Shown here piece after piece: positions 5,723 through 23,125 of a stretch of 64,000 bases of DNA. The notes beneath the pieces are model-generated. The model had not been told where the DNA came from. It ran no database searches and saw only the letters and a program-made list of their open reading frames with translations. The stretch covers positions 1 to 64,000 of the forward strand of contig CALUZA010000027.1 of the NCBI GenBank assembly GCA_944325185.1, given 5' to 3'. This stretch comes from Candidatus Gastranaerophilales bacterium. GTDB lineage: Bacteria; Cyanobacteriota; Vampirovibrionia; Gastranaerophilales; Gastranaerophilaceae. Position 1 is the first letter of the stretch. Every line of letters starts with the position of its first letter. The translations under genes were made by a program, and so were the position numbers.

Positions 5723-6178
5723 ATGGAAAATCAATATTTTTCAAGGTGGTATGATAAGGATCCTGTATTGTCCATGTCCATGCGCACTTTGGCAAATTCA
5801 TCAGATGAAAGACAAATAGCTGTTGCGCTAAATTTAATTAAGGTAATAATTGAACATAATATTAGAGATAATAAGTATGAAAACGTTGAAGATATTATGT
5901 CTGCCGTAGAAGACGGACGTATTCAAAGAGGGCATTCTCGTTGGTATGATATTGATTCTACCGTTAGAACAGCAATTCAAATGCTTGAAAAATGTCCTCC
6001 TGAAACAAAAAAGAAGGTTGCTCTTGATATGGCTCAAATTGTAATTGAGAAAATTATTCAAGATGAAGATAAAGATGAAATTGAAAAAGAGGAGCAAAAA
6101 CAGGAAGAAGTTCAAGAGTTTGAAGGCAAGATAATTGATTTGGATTTAGATAAAGTGCAAGATATAAAAAATGAATGA
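5723..6178 (+). CDS. Unknown protein with an internal SRWYD duplication
   Basis: No known family is recognised. The 151-residue protein contains two related segments: SRWYDKDPVLSMSM... (residues 7-47) and SRWYDIDSTVRTAI... (72-112). Each has SRWYD followed by two helices ending in a VIIEHNI or IVIEKII motif. The C-terminal 40 residues are very acidic and charged (DEDKDEIEKEEQKQEE). It is cytoplasmic by composition. An aaggag site precedes the ATG. The gene follows fixX by 18 bases and overlaps the TPR gene by eight, so the four genes from fixC onward may form one operon. Confidence 0.75.
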   Translation: MENQYFSRWYDKDPVLSMSMRTLANSSDERQIAVALNLIKVIIEHNIRDNKYENVEDIMSAVEDGRIQRGHSRWYDIDSTVRTAIQMLEKCPPETKKKVALDMAQIVIEKIIQDEDKDEIEKEEQKQEEVQEFEGKIIDLDLDKVQDIKNE

Positions 6179-7103
6179 TGCTGAAAAATTTGAAAATCTT
6201 CAAACGACTTTGAAATTAAACCCAAAAAACTTTCAAGCAAGACGAGAACTTGTTATGTTGTGCTTGGATTTAGGATATGAGGAAGTTGCTCTTTCTCATA
6301 TTAAGTATTTGCTTTCAATTTTTCCCGATGATGCTGATTTATATTTTAATACCGGAATATGCTGGGAAAAATTGAAAAATTATGAGAATGCTTTGGCTGC
6401 GTATAAAAAAGCCGTAGAACTCAGATCTGATGATGCGGATTTTTTATATAATCTTGCGCTTGTATATGAAAAACTGGGTGATATAGATAGCGCTATGGCG
6501 AATTTTAAAAAAGTTATTTTTTATAAACCTGAAGATGCAAATGCCTTTTTTTCAATAGGAGTTTTGTATTCTAAAAAAAATGAACCAAAAATTGCAATAA
6601 AATGTTTTAAAAAAGCGATTGAATATAATTATAGTGATTATTTTGCACATTTTTATCTTGCTTGCGAATATAAAAAAATTCATGAGTATGATTTTGCACT
6701 TGTTGAATATAGAAAAGTTTTGGAGCTTTCCCCTGATTACTCTTGGGCATATTTTAATATTGCTCAAATATATTGGGAATTAGGAAGAGTGGATGATGCT
6801 GTTGTAATGCTCAAAAAAACGATTGAAAAAAATCCAAAGGATATGGAAAGTTATAAGCTTTTGGTGCAAATTTTGATAAAAGAAGATAAAATCGATGAAG
6901 CGTTAGAGATATTAACAGATGAAACAGAAAAAACTCAAAATGCGGATATGTACTATCTTATGTCTAAAGTTTTTGAGATTATGGAAGATGATAACGCAAG
7001 ATTTGATTGTCTTGAGCTTGCCCTTGAAAATAGGAACACTTTGACATTTGATGAAAATGCCGTAAAAGTTGAATATAAAGAGTTAAAAAAGAAGATTGCT
7101 TAG
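6171..7103 (+). CDS. Tetratricopeptide (TPR) repeat protein
   Basis: The 310-residue product is almost wholly built from 34-residue TPR units, roughly seven, recognisable by patterns such as ADLYFNTGICWEKLKNYENAL and SWAYFNIAQIYWELGRVDDAV. No signal peptide or membrane helix is seen, so it is probably a cytoplasmic scaffold. It overlaps the stop of the duplicated SRWYD protein by eight bases, which suggests translational coupling and a functional link. Its stop codon overlaps the convergent small membrane-peptide gene by four bases. Confidence 0.93.
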   Translation: MNDAEKFENLQTTLKLNPKNFQARRELVMLCLDLGYEEVALSHIKYLLSIFPDDADLYFNTGICWEKLKNYENALAAYKKAVELRSDDADFLYNLALVYEKLGDIDSAMANFKKVIFYKPEDANAFFSIGVLYSKKNEPKIAIKCFKKAIEYNYSDYFAHFYLACEYKKIHEYDFALVEYRKVLELSPDYSWAYFNIAQIYWELGRVDDAVVMLKKTIEKNPKDMESYKLLVQILIKEDKIDEALEILTDETEKTQNADMYYLMSKVFEIMEDDNARFDCLELALENRNTLTFDENAVKVEYKELKKKIA

Positions 7104-7237
7104 TTTTTAAATAATTTTACTATTCTAAATTCGTAGCCTTCAGGTTTATTTAAATATGCTGTATATATTGATGAAATTATCACCATAAGAAATGATATTG
7201 AAAAACAAATTGCTATTATTTTTTCTTTTTTAGTCAT
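7100..7237 (-). CDS. Conserved 45-residue membrane peptide downstream of prepilin 1
   Basis: This short gene encodes a peptide with a basic start (MTKKEK), one hydrophobic helix (about 7-28, ending SSIYT) and a polar tail with NKPEGYEF. It begins immediately after the prepilin stop (TAAATG), and its ribosome site AAAGGAGAT lies in the prepilin's last codons (Q-K-G-D). A second gene with the same arrangement at 20377-20517 encodes a peptide with 27 of 45 positions identical, strong evidence that both are real. The function is unknown. A partner, anchor or chaperone of the adjacent prepilin is the natural inference. Confidence 0.85.
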   Translation of the reverse strand: MTKKEKIIAICFSISFLMVIISSIYTAYLNKPEGYEFRIVKLFKN

Positions 7238-7996
7238 TTAATCTCCTTTTTGAATTGACTTTTTCATCCATTCTTTTGCTCTTGCTCCAAGAAAAATTTT
7301 TCCGTCTATTCTAATTCCGTATCCAAATGGGTCTTCACCTTTGTTTATTCCGTCTACATCCATACAAAAAACATTTTTAACAAAATAAAATCCGGTTTTT
7401 GTGTGTTCGAATACACAAGCATCTCTTTCTTCTGTTGTTGGAAGTTGTAAACAATATGATATATAATCAACTTTGTTGTCCCATTTAACGTAGTATGGGT
7501 TTCGTATTTCTCTAATCCATTTGTATTTGGCGCCATAAACATTATTTTCATTGTATTGGTAATAGAAAATATCATCAGCTGTTTGTATATAATTTTTTAA
7601 ATTGTTTTGTATGTCTTTACACATATTATCAAGTTTTTCATCTAAATTATTTTCGTCTGAAACATTATCGTCGGGTCCATATATTCCATCTTCATTGTCA
7701 GGATAAACAGCTTTTTTTACGGTTACGATTTCAGAAAATGTTCTTAAAAAGTAATCTTTTTTTGTTACCCATTCTCCATTAGGCATTTTTCCTAAATCAC
7801 CATTTGCATAATATTGATCAGAATTTACAAGTTCTCTTATAACAGTTCCTAAAGTATTATTTCCTTTTTTAAATTTCATTACATTCTCATCAGGAGCGCT
7901 ATGTATTGCAACAGGCAGTAATATCGCACTTAAAACTCCTATTATAACTAAAACAATCATTATTTCTGCTAATGTAAAACCATTCTTTTTAGACAT
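7238..7996 (-). CDS. Type IV prepilin-like protein 1
   Basis: The 252-residue protein begins MSKKNG|FTLAE, the prepilin peptidase site with Glu at position 5 of the mature protein, followed by a long hydrophobic helix (IMIVLVIIGVLSAILLPVA). The next 60 residues (SAPDENVMKFKKGNNTLG...) and the last 45 (FCMDVDGINKGEDPFGYGIR...) are nearly identical to the prepilin at 20518-21261, while the middle (about 90-205) differs. The DVDGxxKGED segment could bind calcium, as in some pseudopilins (inference). No clear ribosome site is seen at the start. It is co-transcribed with the 45-residue peptide and divergent from an XRE regulator. Confidence 0.9.
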   Translation of the reverse strand: MSKKNGFTLAEIMIVLVIIGVLSAILLPVAIHSAPDENVMKFKKGNNTLGTVIRELVNSDQYYANGDLGKMPNGEWVTKKDYFLRTFSEIVTVKKAVYPDNEDGIYGPDDNVSDENNLDEKLDNMCKDIQNNLKNYIQTADDIFYYQYNENNVYGAKYKWIREIRNPYYVKWDNKVDYISYCLQLPTTEERDACVFEHTKTGFYFVKNVFCMDVDGINKGEDPFGYGIRIDGKIFLGARAKEWMKKSIQKGD

Positions 7997-8042
7997 TTAA
8001 TAAGGAAACTTTCTATTTTTTCAATAAATAAAATTGATATTA

Positions 8043-8057
8043 CATCATTAAATGATG
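8043..8057. promoter_or_regulatory. Inverted repeat between prepilin 1 and the XRE gene
   Basis: CATCAT-TAA-ATGATG is a perfect 6+3+6 palindrome, 46 bases upstream of the prepilin start and 76 upstream of the XRE start. It is a plausible operator for the adjacent helix-turn-helix protein, not proven. Confidence 0.45.
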
Positions 8058-8133
8058 AAAGTCAATAAAAATTCTATATATTTTGTCCTTAAAAAACAAA
8101 ATTAAGATATTAACATAATTTTAAGGAGCTAAA

Positions 8134-8454
8134 ATGGATTCTATTAAAAAATCTTTCGGGGCAAGAATAAAAGAAATGCGCGAAAAGCGAGGGTTAAATC
8201 AGGAACAACTTGCCGAATTGCTTAATATGGAATCCAGACATTTAAGTAGAATAGAAACGGGAAAAAGCTTTACAACTCTTGAAAACATTGAAAAAATGGC
8301 TGAAATTTTTAATGTAGATATTAGTTTTTTATTTTCTTTTTCTCATAAAAAAAATAAAAATGAGCTTATAAAAGAAATCGATTTATTTCTTAAAAATGCA
8401 ACGCAAAAAGAGGTTGAACTTGTATATAAAATCGTTTTTGATATTTTTAATTGA
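8134..8454 (+). CDS. XRE-family helix-turn-helix regulator
   Basis: The 106-residue protein has a Cro/CI-type HTH (about 10-65): ARIKEMREKRGLNQEQLAEL, then LNMESRHLSRIETGKSF and TTLENIEKMAEIFNVDISFLF. The short C-terminal helix (about 75-106) may serve dimerisation. An aaggag site precedes the ATG. It is divergent from prepilin cassette 1 and could control it. dprA follows after 23 bases. A paralogue of exactly the same length lies at 44180-44500, also back to back with a prepilin-like gene. Confidence 0.92.
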   Translation: MDSIKKSFGARIKEMREKRGLNQEQLAELLNMESRHLSRIETGKSFTTLENIEKMAEIFNVDISFLFSFSHKKNKNELIKEIDLFLKNATQKEVELVYKIVFDIFN

Positions 8455-8477
8455 TTTTCTTGTGATAAACTGATTTT

Positions 8478-9611
8478 ATGGAAAAAGAAACTCAACTCAA
8501 GTTAATTGAAAATAAGAAAATGGATGAATTAAAGTATTATGTTGCATTTAGCTATTTATTTGTTCGTCCTTTGTTTAAGTCTAAGTTATTTGAGTATTTT
8601 GATTATGATATAGAAAAAGCTTATAATGCTACAAAACAAGATTTAAGAAATGTAGCACAAGAATATGACATTTCAATTCCCAGAGATTTTATTGAAAAAA
8701 GAGATGCTTTGAATATTGATGAGTGTTATTACAATGCCTTTTTAGATAAAGATGTTAAAATTTTAACTTATCACGATGAAAAATATCCTGAACTTTTAAA
8801 AGAAATTCCTGATTTTCCTCTTTCAATATATTATAAAGGCAATATTGATGAAATAAATTATGATTATAATATTGCAATTGTAGGTTCAAGACAGGCATCC
8901 GAGAGTGCAAAGCTTGCGCTAAAAAGCATATTATCTAAATTAAAAAATTCAAATATTGTTGTTGTTTCGGGTTTAGCTTATGGTATAGACAGTCAAGCCC
9001 ATCAAAGTGCATTGGATAATAATTTAAAAACCATTGCTGTTATTGGTTCCGGTTTAGATATAATATATCCTGCTCAAAATAAAAAATTATATAGAGATAT
9101 TTTGAATAATAATGGTCTTGTATTTAGTGAATATCCTTTAAAAACACGTCCCATGGCTCAAAATTTTCCTCAAAGAAATAGAATTGTAGTAGGGATGTCT
9201 AAAGGAACTCTTGTTGCGGAAGCAAAGCTTAAAAGCGGTGCAATGATTAGTGCTAATTTAACATTGGATTATAATAGAGAACTTATGTGTATCCCCGGAA
9301 ATATTTTAAATCCTAATACTTCCGGAATATATTATCTGATAAAAAATGGTGCCGGAATTATTGCCGAATCAAGTGATTTGTTAAATCAAATGGGTTGGGA
9401 TATTATATTTGAAGAAAGCAATGTTAAAAGAAATATTTTAACTGAAATTCAACAAAAAGTGATAGATGTATTATCTTTGGAGCCAAAAACATTTGATGAA
9501 ATTGTCTTTAAAATGTCTGAAGATGTTTCAAAAATTATGGTTACCTTGACAGAGCTTGAATTAAAAGGTTTAATTAAACAATCGAATAATAAATATTATA
9601 GATGCGAATAG
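8478..9611 (+). CDS. dprA: DNA-processing protein DprA
   Basis: DprA binds incoming single-stranded DNA and loads RecA during natural transformation. The 377-residue protein shows the Rossmann-like core: IVGSRQAS, VVVSGLAYGIDSQAH, TIAVIGSGLDIIYP, VFSEYPLKTRP, FPQRNRIVVGMSKGTLVAEA and SGAMISANLTLDYNRE, plus a C-terminal winged-helix-like region (about 305-377). It lies 7 bases upstream of topA, a widely conserved gene pair. Together with nearby prepilins it hints at competence, but no ComEC is in the window. No ribosome site is obvious. Confidence 0.96.
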   Translation: MEKETQLKLIENKKMDELKYYVAFSYLFVRPLFKSKLFEYFDYDIEKAYNATKQDLRNVAQEYDISIPRDFIEKRDALNIDECYYNAFLDKDVKILTYHDEKYPELLKEIPDFPLSIYYKGNIDEINYDYNIAIVGSRQASESAKLALKSILSKLKNSNIVVVSGLAYGIDSQAHQSALDNNLKTIAVIGSGLDIIYPAQNKKLYRDILNNNGLVFSEYPLKTRPMAQNFPQRNRIVVGMSKGTLVAEAKLKSGAMISANLTLDYNRELMCIPGNILNPNTSGIYYLIKNGAGIIAESSDLLNQMGWDIIFEESNVKRNILTEIQQKVIDVLSLEPKTFDEIVFKMSEDVSKIMVTLTELELKGLIKQSNNKYYRCE

Positions 9612-12857: not shown

Positions 12858-13520
12858 ATGATTAGTAGCAAAGAAAATAGTATATATAGAGGTTTTACTC
12901 TCGCGGAAGCTTTGATTACGCTTGTGATTATAGGTATAATTGCAGCGCTTACAATCCCCGGAATTTTAATTAATACGGAACAGCATGAGTATAAATCTGC
13001 CTTAAAAAAAGCATTATCTTCTCTAAATCAGGTAATAGAGTTAAATATAGCACTTGACGGTTACGGACCGATTGAAGCTGTTACAATGACAACACCTGAT
13101 GCAGAAGATAGTTTATATGAGTTATTTAGAAATAGAATGAATGTGATTTCGGTTTCAAAAGCTTATGATTGGGGTGGAACTTCTAATTATGCATTTTATA
13201 CCGGTGATGGTATGAGATTTGAGTTTCCAACTACACCTAAAATAACCGGCGGTACTTTTGCTACAAATAATGGTAAGTGCGCTACCCCAGGAGGCAAAAT
13301 TGAAGATGCTCTTGGAACAGAGTATAATGATCCTTGCTTAATTATAGTTGATGTAAATGGAGATAGAAAACCAAATCCCAGAAAAACAAAAGGAACTTAT
13401 AAAGTTCCTGCTGCAACTGCAAGGTCAAAAGTTCTTGATGTATTCCCAATTATAATAACGGATAAAAATGCATATCCTTATGGAGTTGTTGCACAACGTG
13501 CAATGTTCCAGCATGATTAG
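12858..13520 (+). CDS. Type IV prepilin-like protein 2
   Basis: The 220-residue protein has an unusually long leader (MISSKENSIYRG) before the cleavage motif G|FTLAEALITLVIIGIIAAL, Glu at +5 and a hydrophobic helix. The body contains DVNGDRKPN and ends in PYGVVAQRAMFQHD. It belongs to the broad prepilin-type N-terminal cleavage/methylation family but not to the near-duplicated subtype at 7.2 and 20.5 kb: it lacks their C-terminal motif and has no small peptide gene after it. An in-frame TAA six bases upstream fixes the ATG at 12858 as the earliest start. No strong ribosome site is seen. It is convergent with nrdG across a terminator. Confidence 0.9.
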   Translation: MISSKENSIYRGFTLAEALITLVIIGIIAALTIPGILINTEQHEYKSALKKALSSLNQVIELNIALDGYGPIEAVTMTTPDAEDSLYELFRNRMNVISVSKAYDWGGTSNYAFYTGDGMRFEFPTTPKITGGTFATNNGKCATPGGKIEDALGTEYNDPCLIIVDVNGDRKPNPRKTKGTYKVPAATARSKVLDVFPIIITDKNAYPYGVVAQRAMFQHD

Positions 13521-18960: not shown

Positions 18961-20367
18961 TTATGTATTATCTATTTTTATTCTTATTTCAAAAGAGCGA
19001 TTCCAAGGCAGGGAATATGATATTCTTTTTGGATAAAAGTTTAAAAATTTTGATATTTTTTTAGAATTTTCGTTTAGTTCTTTTTCTTTTTCAATTAAGG
19101 CATCGCTAAAATTAGGCGCGTTTTCCCTTATATATTTTCTTGAAATTGCTTGATAACCCCAATCGTCAAGAAATCTTATGAATTGAATTTTTTTGAAAGC
19201 ATTGTCATCAAATGAATTGCTTTTAAGTGCTAAAAATTTAACTATTGCACAAAACAAGCAGCACCCTATTGTGTTTGCGCTTGTGTTATATCCGCAATAA
19301 CCGAAGAAATTTTCATCATTATTATTAAAAATTTCATCAATAAAAGATAAATCGCTTCCGTTTGCGTTATTTACATCTGCAATAAAAAAATTGTCTTTTG
19401 GAAAGTTGATTTTGTTTTTGTTTGAATTTATAACATCTCCTAAAACCAAATCTCCTTGCTCATTTTTAAAATTATTGACAACCATGGTTAAATCAAAATT
19501 GTTTTGATTGATTGTACAACCTGCAAGTTCAATTTGTCCTTTGACACATTTTTCAATTGAAATATCTTCATATTTTGAAATTAAATTTTTATAATTATTT
19601 TCTAAAAACACAGGGTTAATTTTTATATTTTGATTTTTAGTTAAAGCTCTTGAAATTAGCCCAAGTGGAATTTCGTCAGCCCCTGTTTTTATAAAGGCTT
19701 GATTGATGTTATTTTCTTTAATTATTTTATTTAATTCGTTTGCTTCTTTTACATTTAAACCAAATTCGCTACAATCATCTTTTGAAAAGATTAATGTATC
19801 AAAAAAGCCTTCTTTTGCCCAATTTAAATAAATTTTATTTATTTCAAAATTTCTTTTTCTTGTGTTTAGGTAATCTTCCAAAATGTCATTTGGTATTTTG
19901 TTTATAACGCAATTAAAGCTTTTTTCAACTTCGGATTTGTGGAGATGATATGACCAGTCAAAAATTCTTTTTCCCCATTGAGCCCAGTACATTTTTTCTT
20001 CTTCGTTAATATTGTTATTTGAAATTCTCATTATGGAAGAAAAAGCAAGAATTTTGTTTGTTTTTGTTTTGGCAATATCTTTAAATTTTTCTATTCTTTT
20101 TTTGATTGTTTCAAAACTATCTTCAATTCTTCTTGAGGGAATAAGTCCGCCATAGGCAATTGTATCAAGAGAAACTATTAAAAAATCAACTTGTTCAAGG
20201 TTGTTTAAAAATTCAAATATTTTATCTGTGTCGGATTGGACCGTAAGCCCTCCAAGGTGTTTGATTTCAGGCATGAAAAGTTTTATGTTTTTATCGATTG
20301 ATAAAATATCATCAATTAAATCATAACAAATTGGTCTGTTATCAATTGGAATTACTGCTATTTTCAT
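18961..20367 (-). CDS. DUF4127 family protein
   Basis: The 468-residue protein matches DUF4127: it opens with IAVIPIDNRPICYDL, continues with LGGLTVQSDTDKIFEFL, SLDTIAYGGLIPSRR, then GADEIPLGLISRAL, and ends near a FLDDWGYQA...R motif. The function of the family is not established. It has no signal peptide here, so it is probably cytoplasmic. nadE follows on the same strand 34 bases downstream. The upstream region contains TATAAA eight bases before the ATG, and the small peptide gene of cassette 2 ends only nine bases before it. Confidence 0.85.
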   Translation of the reverse strand: MKIAVIPIDNRPICYDLIDDILSIDKNIKLFMPEIKHLGGLTVQSDTDKIFEFLNNLEQVDFLIVSLDTIAYGGLIPSRRIEDSFETIKKRIEKFKDIAKTKTNKILAFSSIMRISNNNINEEEKMYWAQWGKRIFDWSYHLHKSEVEKSFNCVINKIPNDILEDYLNTRKRNFEINKIYLNWAKEGFFDTLIFSKDDCSEFGLNVKEANELNKIIKENNINQAFIKTGADEIPLGLISRALTKNQNIKINPVFLENNYKNLISKYEDISIEKCVKGQIELAGCTINQNNFDLTMVVNNFKNEQGDLVLGDVINSNKNKINFPKDNFFIADVNNANGSDLSFIDEIFNNNDENFFGYCGYNTSANTIGCCLFCAIVKFLALKSNSFDDNAFKKIQFIRFLDDWGYQAISRKYIRENAPNFSDALIEKEKELNENSKKISKFLNFYPKRISYSLPWNRSFEIRIKIDNT

Positions 20368-20376
20368 ATTTAAAGT

Positions 20377-20517
20377 TTATAATTTTTCAAAAATTTTTTC
20401 AATCATAAATTTATACCCTTGTGGCTTATTGGTAATTATTGTATAAATTGATGAAAATATTACTAAGACCATAGAAAAGCATAAGCAAACTGCAATAATT
20501 TTTTCTTTTTTTGTCAT
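20377..20517 (-). CDS. Conserved 46-residue membrane peptide downstream of prepilin 3
   Basis: This paralogue of the peptide at 7100-7237 starts MTKKEKIIAV, has one hydrophobic helix (about 7-28, ending FSSIYT) and a tail with NKPQGYKF. Twenty-seven of 45 aligned residues are identical. It begins directly after the prepilin stop (TAAATG), with its ribosome site AAAGGAGAT inside the prepilin's last codons. Two independent copies with the same context argue for a true protein-coding gene. The function is unknown. Confidence 0.85.
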   Translation of the reverse strand: MTKKEKIIAVCLCFSMVLVIFSSIYTIITNKPQGYKFMIEKIFEKL

Positions 20518-21261
20518 TTAATCTCCTTTTTGAATAGATTTTTGCATCCATTCTTCTGCTCTTTTACCCATTATGATTTTACCGTCTACCCTAATTCCGT
20601 ATCCAAAAGGATCTTCGCCCTTACCAATACCGTCAACATCCATACAAAAAATTTTGTAAGTATAATAAAATGAATTTGCGTTATTGTAATTTATTGTATC
20701 ATCCACTCCGGATTTGTCCCATTTAAAGTAATAACAATTTCTAACTCCGCACCCAAAACCGGTTCCGTTTCCATCAAAACCAAAAGAGAGACCCGAGTCT
20801 ATTTCATAAAATACAATATTGTCCGCAGTTACTATATAATTTTCTTGTTCATTAATTTCATTTTTACATTTCTTGTCTAAATTTACAGAAATTTCAGCAT
20901 CTCCAAATTTAATTTGCCAATCTTCTGCTTCGTAACCCTTGAAATTGGAAGATACAGGTAAATCTTTTGTGCACTTGTTTTCTTTAACTGATACAACATC
21001 AGAAAAAGTGTTGCAAAAATAATCAGATTCTATAACCCAGTTTCCATCTGCTTTTTTGCCTAAATCCCCGTTTGCATAATATTGATCAGAATTAACAAGC
21101 TCTCTTATAACATTTCCAAGAGTATTATTTCCCTTTTTAAATTTCATTACATTTTCATCAGGAGCCGAGCTTATTGCAACAGGAAGTAATATTGCAGTTA
21201 AAATTCCGATAATTGTTAGAACAATCATTATTTCAGCTAAAGTAAAACCTTTTATTTTCAT
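20518..21261 (-). CDS. Type IV prepilin-like protein 3
   Basis: The 247-residue protein is a close paralogue of the product at 7238-7996. Leader MKIKG|FTLAE, helix IMIVLTIIGILTAILLPVA, then SAPDENVMKFKKGNNTLG and VIRELVNSDQYYANGDLGK are shared, as is the end FCMDVDGIGKGEDPFGYGIR...SIQKGD. The central part (about 85-200) is unrelated and Cys-containing. Unlike the first copy, it has a clear gagggt ribosome site six bases before the ATG. It is divergent from an AbrB-fold protein. Confidence 0.9.
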   Translation of the reverse strand: MKIKGFTLAEIMIVLTIIGILTAILLPVAISSAPDENVMKFKKGNNTLGNVIRELVNSDQYYANGDLGKKADGNWVIESDYFCNTFSDVVSVKENKCTKDLPVSSNFKGYEAEDWQIKFGDAEISVNLDKKCKNEINEQENYIVTADNIVFYEIDSGLSFGFDGNGTGFGCGVRNCYYFKWDKSGVDDTINYNNANSFYYTYKIFCMDVDGIGKGEDPFGYGIRVDGKIIMGKRAEEWMQKSIQKGD

Positions 21262-21277
21262 ATATTACCCTCATGTT

Positions 21278-21298
21278 TATGCATACATTATGCATACA
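21278..21298. promoter_or_regulatory. Tandem TATGCATACA repeats between prepilin 3 and the AbrB-fold gene
   Basis: TATGCATACA occurs twice as exact direct repeats (21278-21287 and 21289-21298), 11 bases apart, one helical turn. Each contains the palindrome TATGCATA. They lie 17-37 bases upstream of the prepilin start, a good place for an operator of the divergently encoded DNA-binding protein. Confidence 0.55.
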
Positions 21299-21366
21299 AA
21301 ATGAAATATTTATAAATATATTATTCATTTAACATAAGTTCAATACATTATTTAAAGGTTATTTTT

Positions 21367-21684
21367 TTGAAAAAAGCTTTAACTACAAACGGAAATTCTT
21401 GGCAACTGTATATTAATAAGCCGATTGCTGATTTGCTTGGCATAAATAAAGTCGACTATACGGTTAATTTATATATTGAAAAAAGAGTTTTATATGTATC
21501 GAAAAATTTTGATAATATTTCAAATGTTTCATTTTTAACCAAAAAATTAATTAAAAGAGGTTCGGGTTTTGGTTTAAATTTTTCAATTCCTATTCTGGAA
21601 CTTTTGGATATTACTCCTGAAAAAGATATGTTGGATATAATTCTTGTTGAAAATAAATTGATTATTAAAAAGCTTAAAAGATAA
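21367..21684 (+). CDS. Protein with two SpoVT/AbrB-like swapped-hairpin domains
   Basis: The 105-residue protein contains two similar halves: KALTTNGNSWQLYINKPIADLLGI (about 3-26) and KLIKRGSGFGLNFSIPILELLDI (about 59-81), each followed by short beta strands. This is the AbrB/MazE pattern (G-N-S/G-F-x-L-x-I-P), which normally dimerises to bind DNA; here both halves are in one chain. The start is TTG at 21367, preceded by aaagg, and no ATG fits. It is probably a transcription regulator, divergent from prepilin 3. It could also be an antitoxin-like protein, but no toxin gene adjoins it. Confidence 0.75.
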   Translation: MKKALTTNGNSWQLYINKPIADLLGINKVDYTVNLYIEKRVLYVSKNFDNISNVSFLTKKLIKRGSGFGLNFSIPILELLDITPEKDMLDIILVENKLIIKKLKR

Positions 21685-21775
21685 ATTAATTGTTTATTAA
21701 AAATTAACTTGTTTGATGTGTTTTTTCAAGATAGAATTATTTAAGTTAGAAGGAATTATTTTTCAGGAGAAAATT

Positions 21776-23125
21776 TTGCATTTTTGTTTAGATGAGATTG
21801 TAAGCTGTTTAAATTGCGAAGTATTATATAAAAAAGACAGTTTTGACAATAAAAAACTTTTTAATATATCAACCGATACAAGGAAACTTCAAAAGGGCGA
21901 CTGTTATCTTCCTTTGAGGGGTGAAAATTTTGATGGTCATAATTTTATAGATAAGGCTATAGAAAATGGCGCTATAGGATATTTTACTCAAGATAGATTT
22001 AAAATAAATAAATCGGCTGATTTTGTTTTATATGTCAAAAATTCGCTTGTTGCATATTTGGAACTTGCAAGTTATATAAGAAGAAAAATAAATCCGACTG
22101 TTATCGCAATAACCGGTTCATGCGGCAAAACTACCACAAAAGAAATGCTTTATAGTGTTTTTTCAACTACATATAAAACCCATAAAACCGCCCTTAATCA
22201 TAACAATGAAATCGGGTTTTGCGAAACAATGTTTAATATGCCGACAGATTGCGAGGTTGCAATTGTTGAAATGGGCATGCGCAATTTAGGTGAAATTGAG
22301 TTATTGTCTAAATATTCTAACCCTGATATCGGAATTATTTCCAATATTGGTTCAGCGCATGTTGAAAGACTTGGAACTTTAAAAAATATAGCAATAGCAA
22401 AATGTGAAATTACAAAGAATTTAAAATCGAAATCCGATGGCGGACTATTTATTGGAAGTAAGTGTCCACAGATTTTGGAAAATTTAAATTATGACGGTGA
22501 TAAAATTTTTACATCTCTTGAGGACGTTACAAATATAGACATAAAACTTGAGTCAACTAAATTTACATACAAGGGTCATGATTTTGAAATAACTCAATCG
22601 GGCGAATATAATATTTTGAATGCACTTTTGGTTATTGAAGCGGCATTAGCAAAAAATATTACATTTGAAAATATTAAAAAAGGCTTATTAAATTATAAAC
22701 CAATAGAAAAACGTTGGGAAAAGACTGTTGTTGGAGGATTTACTTTTGTAAATGACAGCTATAATGCAAATCCTGAATCTATGAATGCTGTTTTAAAAAC
22801 ATTTTTATCTATATATCCTCGTCCAATTGTGCTTGTTTTGGGTGATATGGGTGAACTTGGCAAAGATGAAATAATGTATCACAAACAAGTGGGTGAATTT
22901 TTATCTTCGTATAAGGATGTAACATTGCTTACTGTGGGTAATCTTGCAAGACATATAGCAAGAAACACAACTCTTGAAAGTGTGGAATTTGAAAACAATG
23001 ACGAGTGTGCAGAATATATTGTAAAAAATGTAAATAAAGAATCGACTATTCTTTTGAAAGCTTCTCGTTCTATGAAATTTGAGCAAATAATTGAAAAAGT
23101 TAGTGAAATGGCGGTAAATTTATGA
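21776..23125 (+). CDS. murF: UDP-N-acetylmuramoyl-tripeptide--D-alanyl-D-alanine ligase
   Basis: MurF adds D-Ala-D-Ala to the peptidoglycan precursor. The central ATP site is ITGSCGKTTTKE, followed by TALNHNNEIGFCETM, VEMGMRNLGEIELLS and the C-terminal NDSYNANPESM and LVLGDMGELG. A TTG start at 21776 is chosen because caggag lies six bases upstream and the product (449 residues) begins LHFCLDEIV, as MurF proteins do. A longer frame reaches a TTG at 21713 (ATG at 21716) but has no ribosome site. It overlaps mraY by four bases and heads the wall-synthesis cluster. Confidence 0.96.
   Translation: MHFCLDEIVSCLNCEVLYKKDSFDNKKLFNISTDTRKLQKGDCYLPLRGENFDGHNFIDKAIENGAIGYFTQDRFKINKSADFVLYVKNSLVAYLELASYIRRKINPTVIAITGSCGKTTTKEMLYSVFSTTYKTHKTALNHNNEIGFCETMFNMPTDCEVAIVEMGMRNLGEIELLSKYSNPDIGIISNIGSAHVERLGTLKNIAIAKCEITKNLKSKSDGGLFIGSKCPQILENLNYDGDKIFTSLEDVTNIDIKLESTKFTYKGHDFEITQSGEYNILNALLVIEAALAKNITFENIKKGLLNYKPIEKRWEKTVVGGFTFVNDSYNANPESMNAVLKTFLSIYPRPIVLVLGDMGELGKDEIMYHKQVGEFLSSYKDVTLLTVGNLARHIARNTTLESVEFENNDECAEYIVKNVNKESTILLKASRSMKFEQIIEKVSEMAVNL

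Follow-up and report, generated by a model that had tools for sequence, protein, structure and literature searches.

Two loci in the analysed window, the whole 64,000-nucleotide stretch of a Candidatus Gastranaerophilales contig, each carry a prepilin-like gene, a gene for a small membrane peptide directly behind it and a divergently transcribed regulator-like gene. The sequence-only reading had described a two-gene cassette conserved at two loci. The pair is real, but it is part of a larger set, with about nine further copies in the host genome (G000; 1.74 Mb, 63 contigs), and the unit is instead a three-gene module with a divergent regulator and is a discrete insertion. This arrangement points to a repertoire under regulation and not to a fixed pair of pilus subunits. 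We think it fairly probable that each locus is a self-contained, independently controlled prepilin module, in which the middle of the prepilin would be replaced between loci, the regulator would stay fixed to its site and the peptide would be a co-produced assembly accessory.

Module 1 (7104-8477) is flanked by a TPR gene (6171-7103) and dprA (8478-9611). On its minus strand are a 252-residue prepilin (7238-7996) with the class III signal GFTLAE and a 45-residue single-helix membrane peptide (7100-7237; MTKKEKIIAICFSISFLMVIISSIYTAYLNKPEGYEFRIVKLFKN), the latter recognized by dN/dS, adjacency and hydropathy. The plus strand encodes a divergent 106-residue XRE-type HTH regulator of family R10 (8134-8454; HTH_3, 4e-14). 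A candidate minus-strand promoter for the prepilin, predicted from sequence (8037-8065), combines a -35 element TTGACT (8060-8065) and a -10 element TAATAT (8037-8042) with a 17-bp spacer, and this spacer is filled by a 15-bp palindrome, CATCATTtAATGATG (8043-8057), a candidate operator that is identical in G002. Module 2 (20368-21712), between a DUF4127 gene (18961-20367) and murF (21713-23125), consists of a 247-residue prepilin (20518-21261) and a 46-residue peptide (20377-20517) on the minus strand, a candidate operator palindrome, TATGCATA-atg-TATGCATA (21278-21296), and a divergent plus-strand gene for a small regulator-like protein of 105 residues with a TTG start (21367-21684; family R14). 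The coordinates, frames and prepilin-peptide layout first proposed for the two minus-strand pairs are correct. Both prepilins end SIQKGD-TAA, and the peptide ATG abuts the stop codon with zero gap. Gap-free alignment of the two peptides matches 27 of 45 residues, reproducing the identity claimed before, and the peptide has one hydrophobic helix starting at residue 7 (19-residue hydropathy 2.46). The window also encodes another prepilin-like protein of 220 residues (12858-13520; GFTLAEALITLVIIGIIAALTIPG), shortly downstream of topA, with neither regulator nor peptide.

The modules measure about 1.3 kb and lie between housekeeping genes that adjoin in most relatives. In 18 relatives the TPR gene lies directly next to dprA, and in G000 and G002 a module splits the two; a prepilin start also lies beside dprA in G023. 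At least 12 relatives have the DUF4127 gene and murF side by side, and the pair is split in G000 and G023. Empty and occupied sites were likewise observed near pnp, gyrB, tmk and gltD, at a fifth gene pair (C41) and at C40; the TPR and dprA names come from identification, and the pnp, gyrB, tmk and gltD site names were assigned by eye. The module boundaries fall in AT-rich spacers, at the stop codons of regulator and peptide or close to them, and at non-orthologous sites homology stops at or near the regulator stop codon. An integron gene cassette or IS-type element would have conserved ends recognised by a recombinase, such as attC sites, inverted repeats or a target duplication of fixed length. 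No end sequence common to different regulator families was seen among relatives that, at about 80% identity, are too diverged for base-level junctions. A check for target-site duplications gave A/T-rich overlaps of about 6-32 nt, which are not resolvable in comparisons at this level of identity.

Both window proteins are type IV prepilin-like, with a predicted class III signal GF(x)LxE and N-terminal methylation helix, and score above cut-off for PF07963 (31.2 and 26.3 bits; cut-off 21.2) and TIGR02532 (29.7 and 25.7; cut-off 16.3). GspG/H and ComGC/E (TIGR01710, TIGR01708, NF040999) have the same signal and N-terminal helix, but scores for these families are far below their cut-offs and the match is limited to the first ~35-50 residues; assignment as a type II secretion pseudopilin GspG/GspH was rejected at 23.5-26.3 bits versus the 80-88.85 needed for an equivalog. 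The C-terminal part of the prepilin matches no family. An AlphaFold2 model (mean pLDDT 74) has long N-terminal helices and a mixed ectodomain, and a fold search of this model against the PDB returned no usable match.

The host genome contains 15 loci of this prepilin class, 11 with the peptide and four without it (C1a, C24, C40 and C30, the last with a frameshifted prepilin). Their products have a conserved N-terminal part of ~75 residues and a conserved C-terminal part of ~50 residues, with a variable middle between them. The fabF/dnaK-linked copy at C24, without regulator or peptide, is the probable ancestral locus. A GspE/PilB-type ATPase is also encoded in the genome, and a 372-residue frame, which may be PilT-like, gave a second match that is partial. 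In the family's other genera, one or two prepilin homologs are present. The genes pilA, B, C, D and T have been reported in termite Gastranaerophilus, with nothing there on expansions (PMC5877343), and we found no paper on the prepilin expansions described here.

The peptide gave 12 matches in the host genome, which amount to 11 distinct loci because C31/C35 and C1/C56 are each a single locus split over contig ends (peptide sequence is common to the first pair and a prepilin tail to the second). Several species of the same genus carry it, with 1-8 matches each, and other species are without it; outside the genus, three weak partial matches among 286 genomes of the order (E 2e-4 to 9e-4) were not accepted. 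In a contig scan of named genomes with the alignment as query, matches were mostly to MAGs of Candidatus Gastranaerophilales, with goat colon as one of the sources. The search of related genomes for small ORFs behind prepilins, as first proposed, was productive: a prepilin lies upstream of 34 of the 35 distinct peptides for which upstream DNA is available. Synonymous and nonsynonymous rates are not near parity. In close pairs, dN/dS is mostly 0.04-0.4, with a median of 0.39 for the 152 pairs in which pS is below 0.5, and since these values are well below 1, selection acts on the peptide as a protein and not only on DNA identity. The peptide is thus under purifying selection. No known family was found for it in Pfam, NCBIfam, PHROGs, PADLOC or PDB sequences, in agreement with the earlier statement that no described family covers it; marginal matches to Sar8_2, Tmem26 and similar families fell below cut-off and were rejected. 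By these comparisons, the peptide is a previously undescribed family of predicted small membrane proteins tied to prepilins. No relatives of peptide or prepilin were found in 2.9 million viral contigs, and a virus origin was rejected on this basis.

The peptide had been proposed as a dedicated partner of this prepilin class. Its occurrence only behind the class makes this reasonable, but the class does not require the peptide, which is missing from four of the 15 loci in its own genome and from relatives rich in the same prepilins (29 matches in G008, 34 in G012 and 14 in G018). That these three genomes do without it argues that it is an accessory. Together, the restriction to one genus, the adjacency to prepilins and the absence from prepilin-rich sister lineages point to a dedicated but dispensable accessory function. 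In G005, the peptides of three loci (L093, L094 and L100) stand behind prepilins with another C-terminal end (...CP or ...CTE), and those of L093 and L094 are divergent (MTKEKLAMILATIAIILLIISVVVVAFLNKPDGYSF), with NKPDGYSF retained.

The Shine-Dalgarno (SD) sequence of the peptide, AAAGGAGA, lies in the final K-G-D codons of prepilin 1 (7242-7249, minus strand) and in the last codons of prepilin 2 (20522-20529, minus strand). With AAAGGAGAT in the last three prepilin codons (AAA GGA GAT), the anti-SD duplex has an energy of -8.7 kcal/mol, and the ribosome site first noted there is real. Across prepilins, the median tail SD energy is -5.6 kcal/mol where a peptide abuts versus -0.9 kcal/mol where no peptide is adjacent (Mann-Whitney p about 1e-7, an indicative value because the sequences are related by descent). 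Three prepilin endings supply an SD to an abutting peptide, namely KGD/KGE, EKE (G003, G009) and SKD (G005), and where the peptide start is offset by 8-18 nt the SD is found in the spacer instead of the prepilin codons. However, the placement is not special: among 13 further gene pairs of the window with tight spacing, eight have an SD-like match within the upstream ORF, so an SD inside the upstream gene is normal operon design. The view that the KGD ending is kept solely for ribosome binding is too simple, as peptide-less prepilins in G001, G014 and the G002 core copy end QGD. The ending of these copies suggests that the prepilin tail may be older than the peptide.

Small divergent regulator-like genes (69-123 residues) are present at 13 of the 15 prepilin loci of the host genome and are separated from the prepilin by a common promoter region of about 50-150 bp. 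Most of the products are XRE/HTH_3 proteins. The R14 regulator of module 2 has no Pfam or NCBIfam match, and R3 is likewise without a curated DNA-binding match; by eye, the R14 gene (21367-21684) appears to encode a doubled AbrB-type fold, and a homolog is present at the same site in G023. Fourteen families of regulators are found in more than one species. In most of them the intergenic DNA contains conserved palindromic sites, and for most it is conserved family by family. The R5 intergenic region contains a perfect palindrome of 36-38 bp in G002 and G023, ACTTATAA/TTATAAGT is repeated in that of R4, and TCTATATATAGA and TTCATGACATGAA are found for R1 and R2, respectively.

All 11 peptide loci of the host genome have a regulator, and the two regulator-less loci, C1a and C24, are also without peptide. 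This association within one module would be expected if the peptide acted on regulation, either as a membrane signal that informs or titrates the regulator or as an inhibitor that limits the amount of prepilin. However, a single peptide family serves many unrelated regulator families, which makes direct contact between the peptide and each regulator unlikely, and G008 has the same regulators with no peptide. A regulatory role is therefore a rather unlikely explanation.

The relation between regulator and prepilin was assessed for 14 regulator families in 41 modules from seven genomes. Regulators of the same family are about 85% identical between genomes (median), whereas the identity of prepilin middles is 0.40 under the same regulator, compared with 0.39 under different regulators in one genome and 0.37 under different regulators in different genomes. 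At one R4 site compared between G003 and G009, the flank is 93%, the regulator 97% and the intergenic region 95% identical, but the prepilin middle only 29%; the middle of G009 R4 is instead 84% identical to the one found under R7 in G003. Corresponding values are 97/90/92 versus a middle of 33% for R5 in G003 and G009, and 93/93/90 versus 31% for R8 in G000 and G023. As an exception, R5 in G002 and G023 has the same middle allele (97%). Clearly similar middles under different regulators were seen in only two cases, G009 R4 with G003 R7 and G000 R4 with R3. The simplest reading of these comparisons suggests that the middle is exchanged between loci while each site keeps its regulator, although rapid divergence could partly contribute to the low middle identity.

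If the middle is exchanged, the peptide gene could be a passenger, with the conserved prepilin tail and the peptide together forming a ~280-bp homology arm. The conserved ends that flank the variable middle and the near-identical peptides within some genomes fit such a role, but the dN/dS values indicate protein-level selection and the G008 middles are similarly divergent without any peptide, so that we consider a passenger gene improbable. When copies within a genome are compared, the similarity of their peptides is uncorrelated with that of the variable middles (Spearman -0.02) and weakly related to that of the helix-proximal prepilin parts (0.18-0.20 at best). An immunity protein would normally vary together with its variable effector, and this lack of covariation also counts against a role of the peptide as a small membrane toxin or immunity factor for which the prepilin would be the delivery or partner protein. 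The size and single helix of the peptide do resemble type I toxins, and toxin-antitoxin loci often carry XRE regulators (weak matches below cut-off). However, translation of the peptide is coupled to a much larger gene, the peptide is lost while the module persists and no defence or toxin family was matched, which leaves a toxin or immunity role very improbable. Chance frames behind duplicated prepilins, although short ORFs are common in AT-rich DNA, are refuted by the dN/dS values, the conservation across species and the SD placement.

We return to the self-contained prepilin module. In the proposed mechanism, regulator and prepilin would be transcribed away from their common operator and promoter region, and the regulator would most likely repress both its own gene and the prepilin gene through the intergenic palindromes. 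The fast-changing middle would be swapped between loci by recombination, with the conserved prepilin ends as likely homology arms, while regulator and operator remain at the site. These conserved parts may correspond to a membrane and polymerisation end and a C-terminal cap, with the protein presumably displayed on the surface. The prepilin message of one set of species would also encode the ~45-residue peptide; ribosomes would load on the last prepilin codons, and the peptide would therefore be produced together with that prepilin. Because it stays similar while the middle changes, the peptide most likely acts as a holdase or assembly accessory that binds the conserved part of the prepilin in the inner membrane. 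Thus, it is probably a co-translated membrane partner of the conserved part. A more tentative extension, which we put forward as possible, is that the loci form a dispersed prepilin bank, each with an orthogonal repressor and operator, in which the variable region is swapped under fixed control. The resulting combinatorial surface variation would be neither of the silent-cassette nor of the invertible-promoter type, and the coupled micropeptide would be a dedicated pilus assembly factor in some species.

Surface variation in known systems usually involves one expressed gene with silent donors, or switches on fixed genes. In Neisseria, pilE/pilS variation combines one expressed locus with promoterless, 5'-truncated silent cassettes. 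The modules resemble this system in that the pilin has a conserved N-terminus and a variable region, and the data would also fit an exchange in which variable segments move from one paralogous copy to another. They differ in that every examined copy is full length with its own start codon and promoter region, and most have their own regulator gene; a pilE/pilS-type silent-cassette arrangement was rejected on this basis. Small membrane subunits of the CydX/KdpF type are encoded beside their partner. Like them, the peptide is under 60 residues, has one predicted transmembrane helix, is last in a tight operon and occurs only with its partner gene; unlike them, it matches no known family, is partnered with a prepilin rather than an enzyme complex and is dispensable across sister species. 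RstR- and CI-like XRE phage switches also have a small XRE protein divergent from the controlled gene and palindromes in the common intergenic region, but the controlled gene here is a prepilin with no relative in viral contigs, and no phage genes were seen adjoining the modules. With stable, site-bound regulators and a mobile variable protein part, these bacteria would make their surface changeable in a different way. The hosts are uncultured animal-gut relatives of cyanobacteria (MAGs from goat colon and other sources) whose surface biology is almost undescribed, and a prepilin-tied peptide could reveal a step of type IV pilus assembly that has so far been missed.

In a tree built from two genes, G001, G004 and G014 are sister to G000 and G002, and G023 branches outside (supports 86-97). 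The three sister genomes have three prepilin matches each and no accepted peptide. Modules occupy the dprA, pnp, tmk and comM sites in G000, G002 and G023, so that many modules were likely lost in the G001/G004/G014 branch, although transfer may also account for the pattern. Decaying modules were observed as a frameshifted prepilin at L055 (G000, C30), a frameshift or stop in the peptide at L092 and L095 (G023 and G009) and an early-stop prepilin at L137 (G008), indicating module turnover. The tmk-linked module and its neighbours are present twice in G000, on C5 (L044) and on C63 (L045, L043). Flank, regulator and prepilin on C63 are 100% identical to those of G002, whereas most other common sites are 80-90% alike, which would point to contamination by this contig, to a chimera or to very recent transfer. 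At the module after nusA (L047; G000, C46, position 70890), the downstream neighbour is found about 26 kb away in four relatives, and a genome rearrangement therefore appears to have one end at this module.
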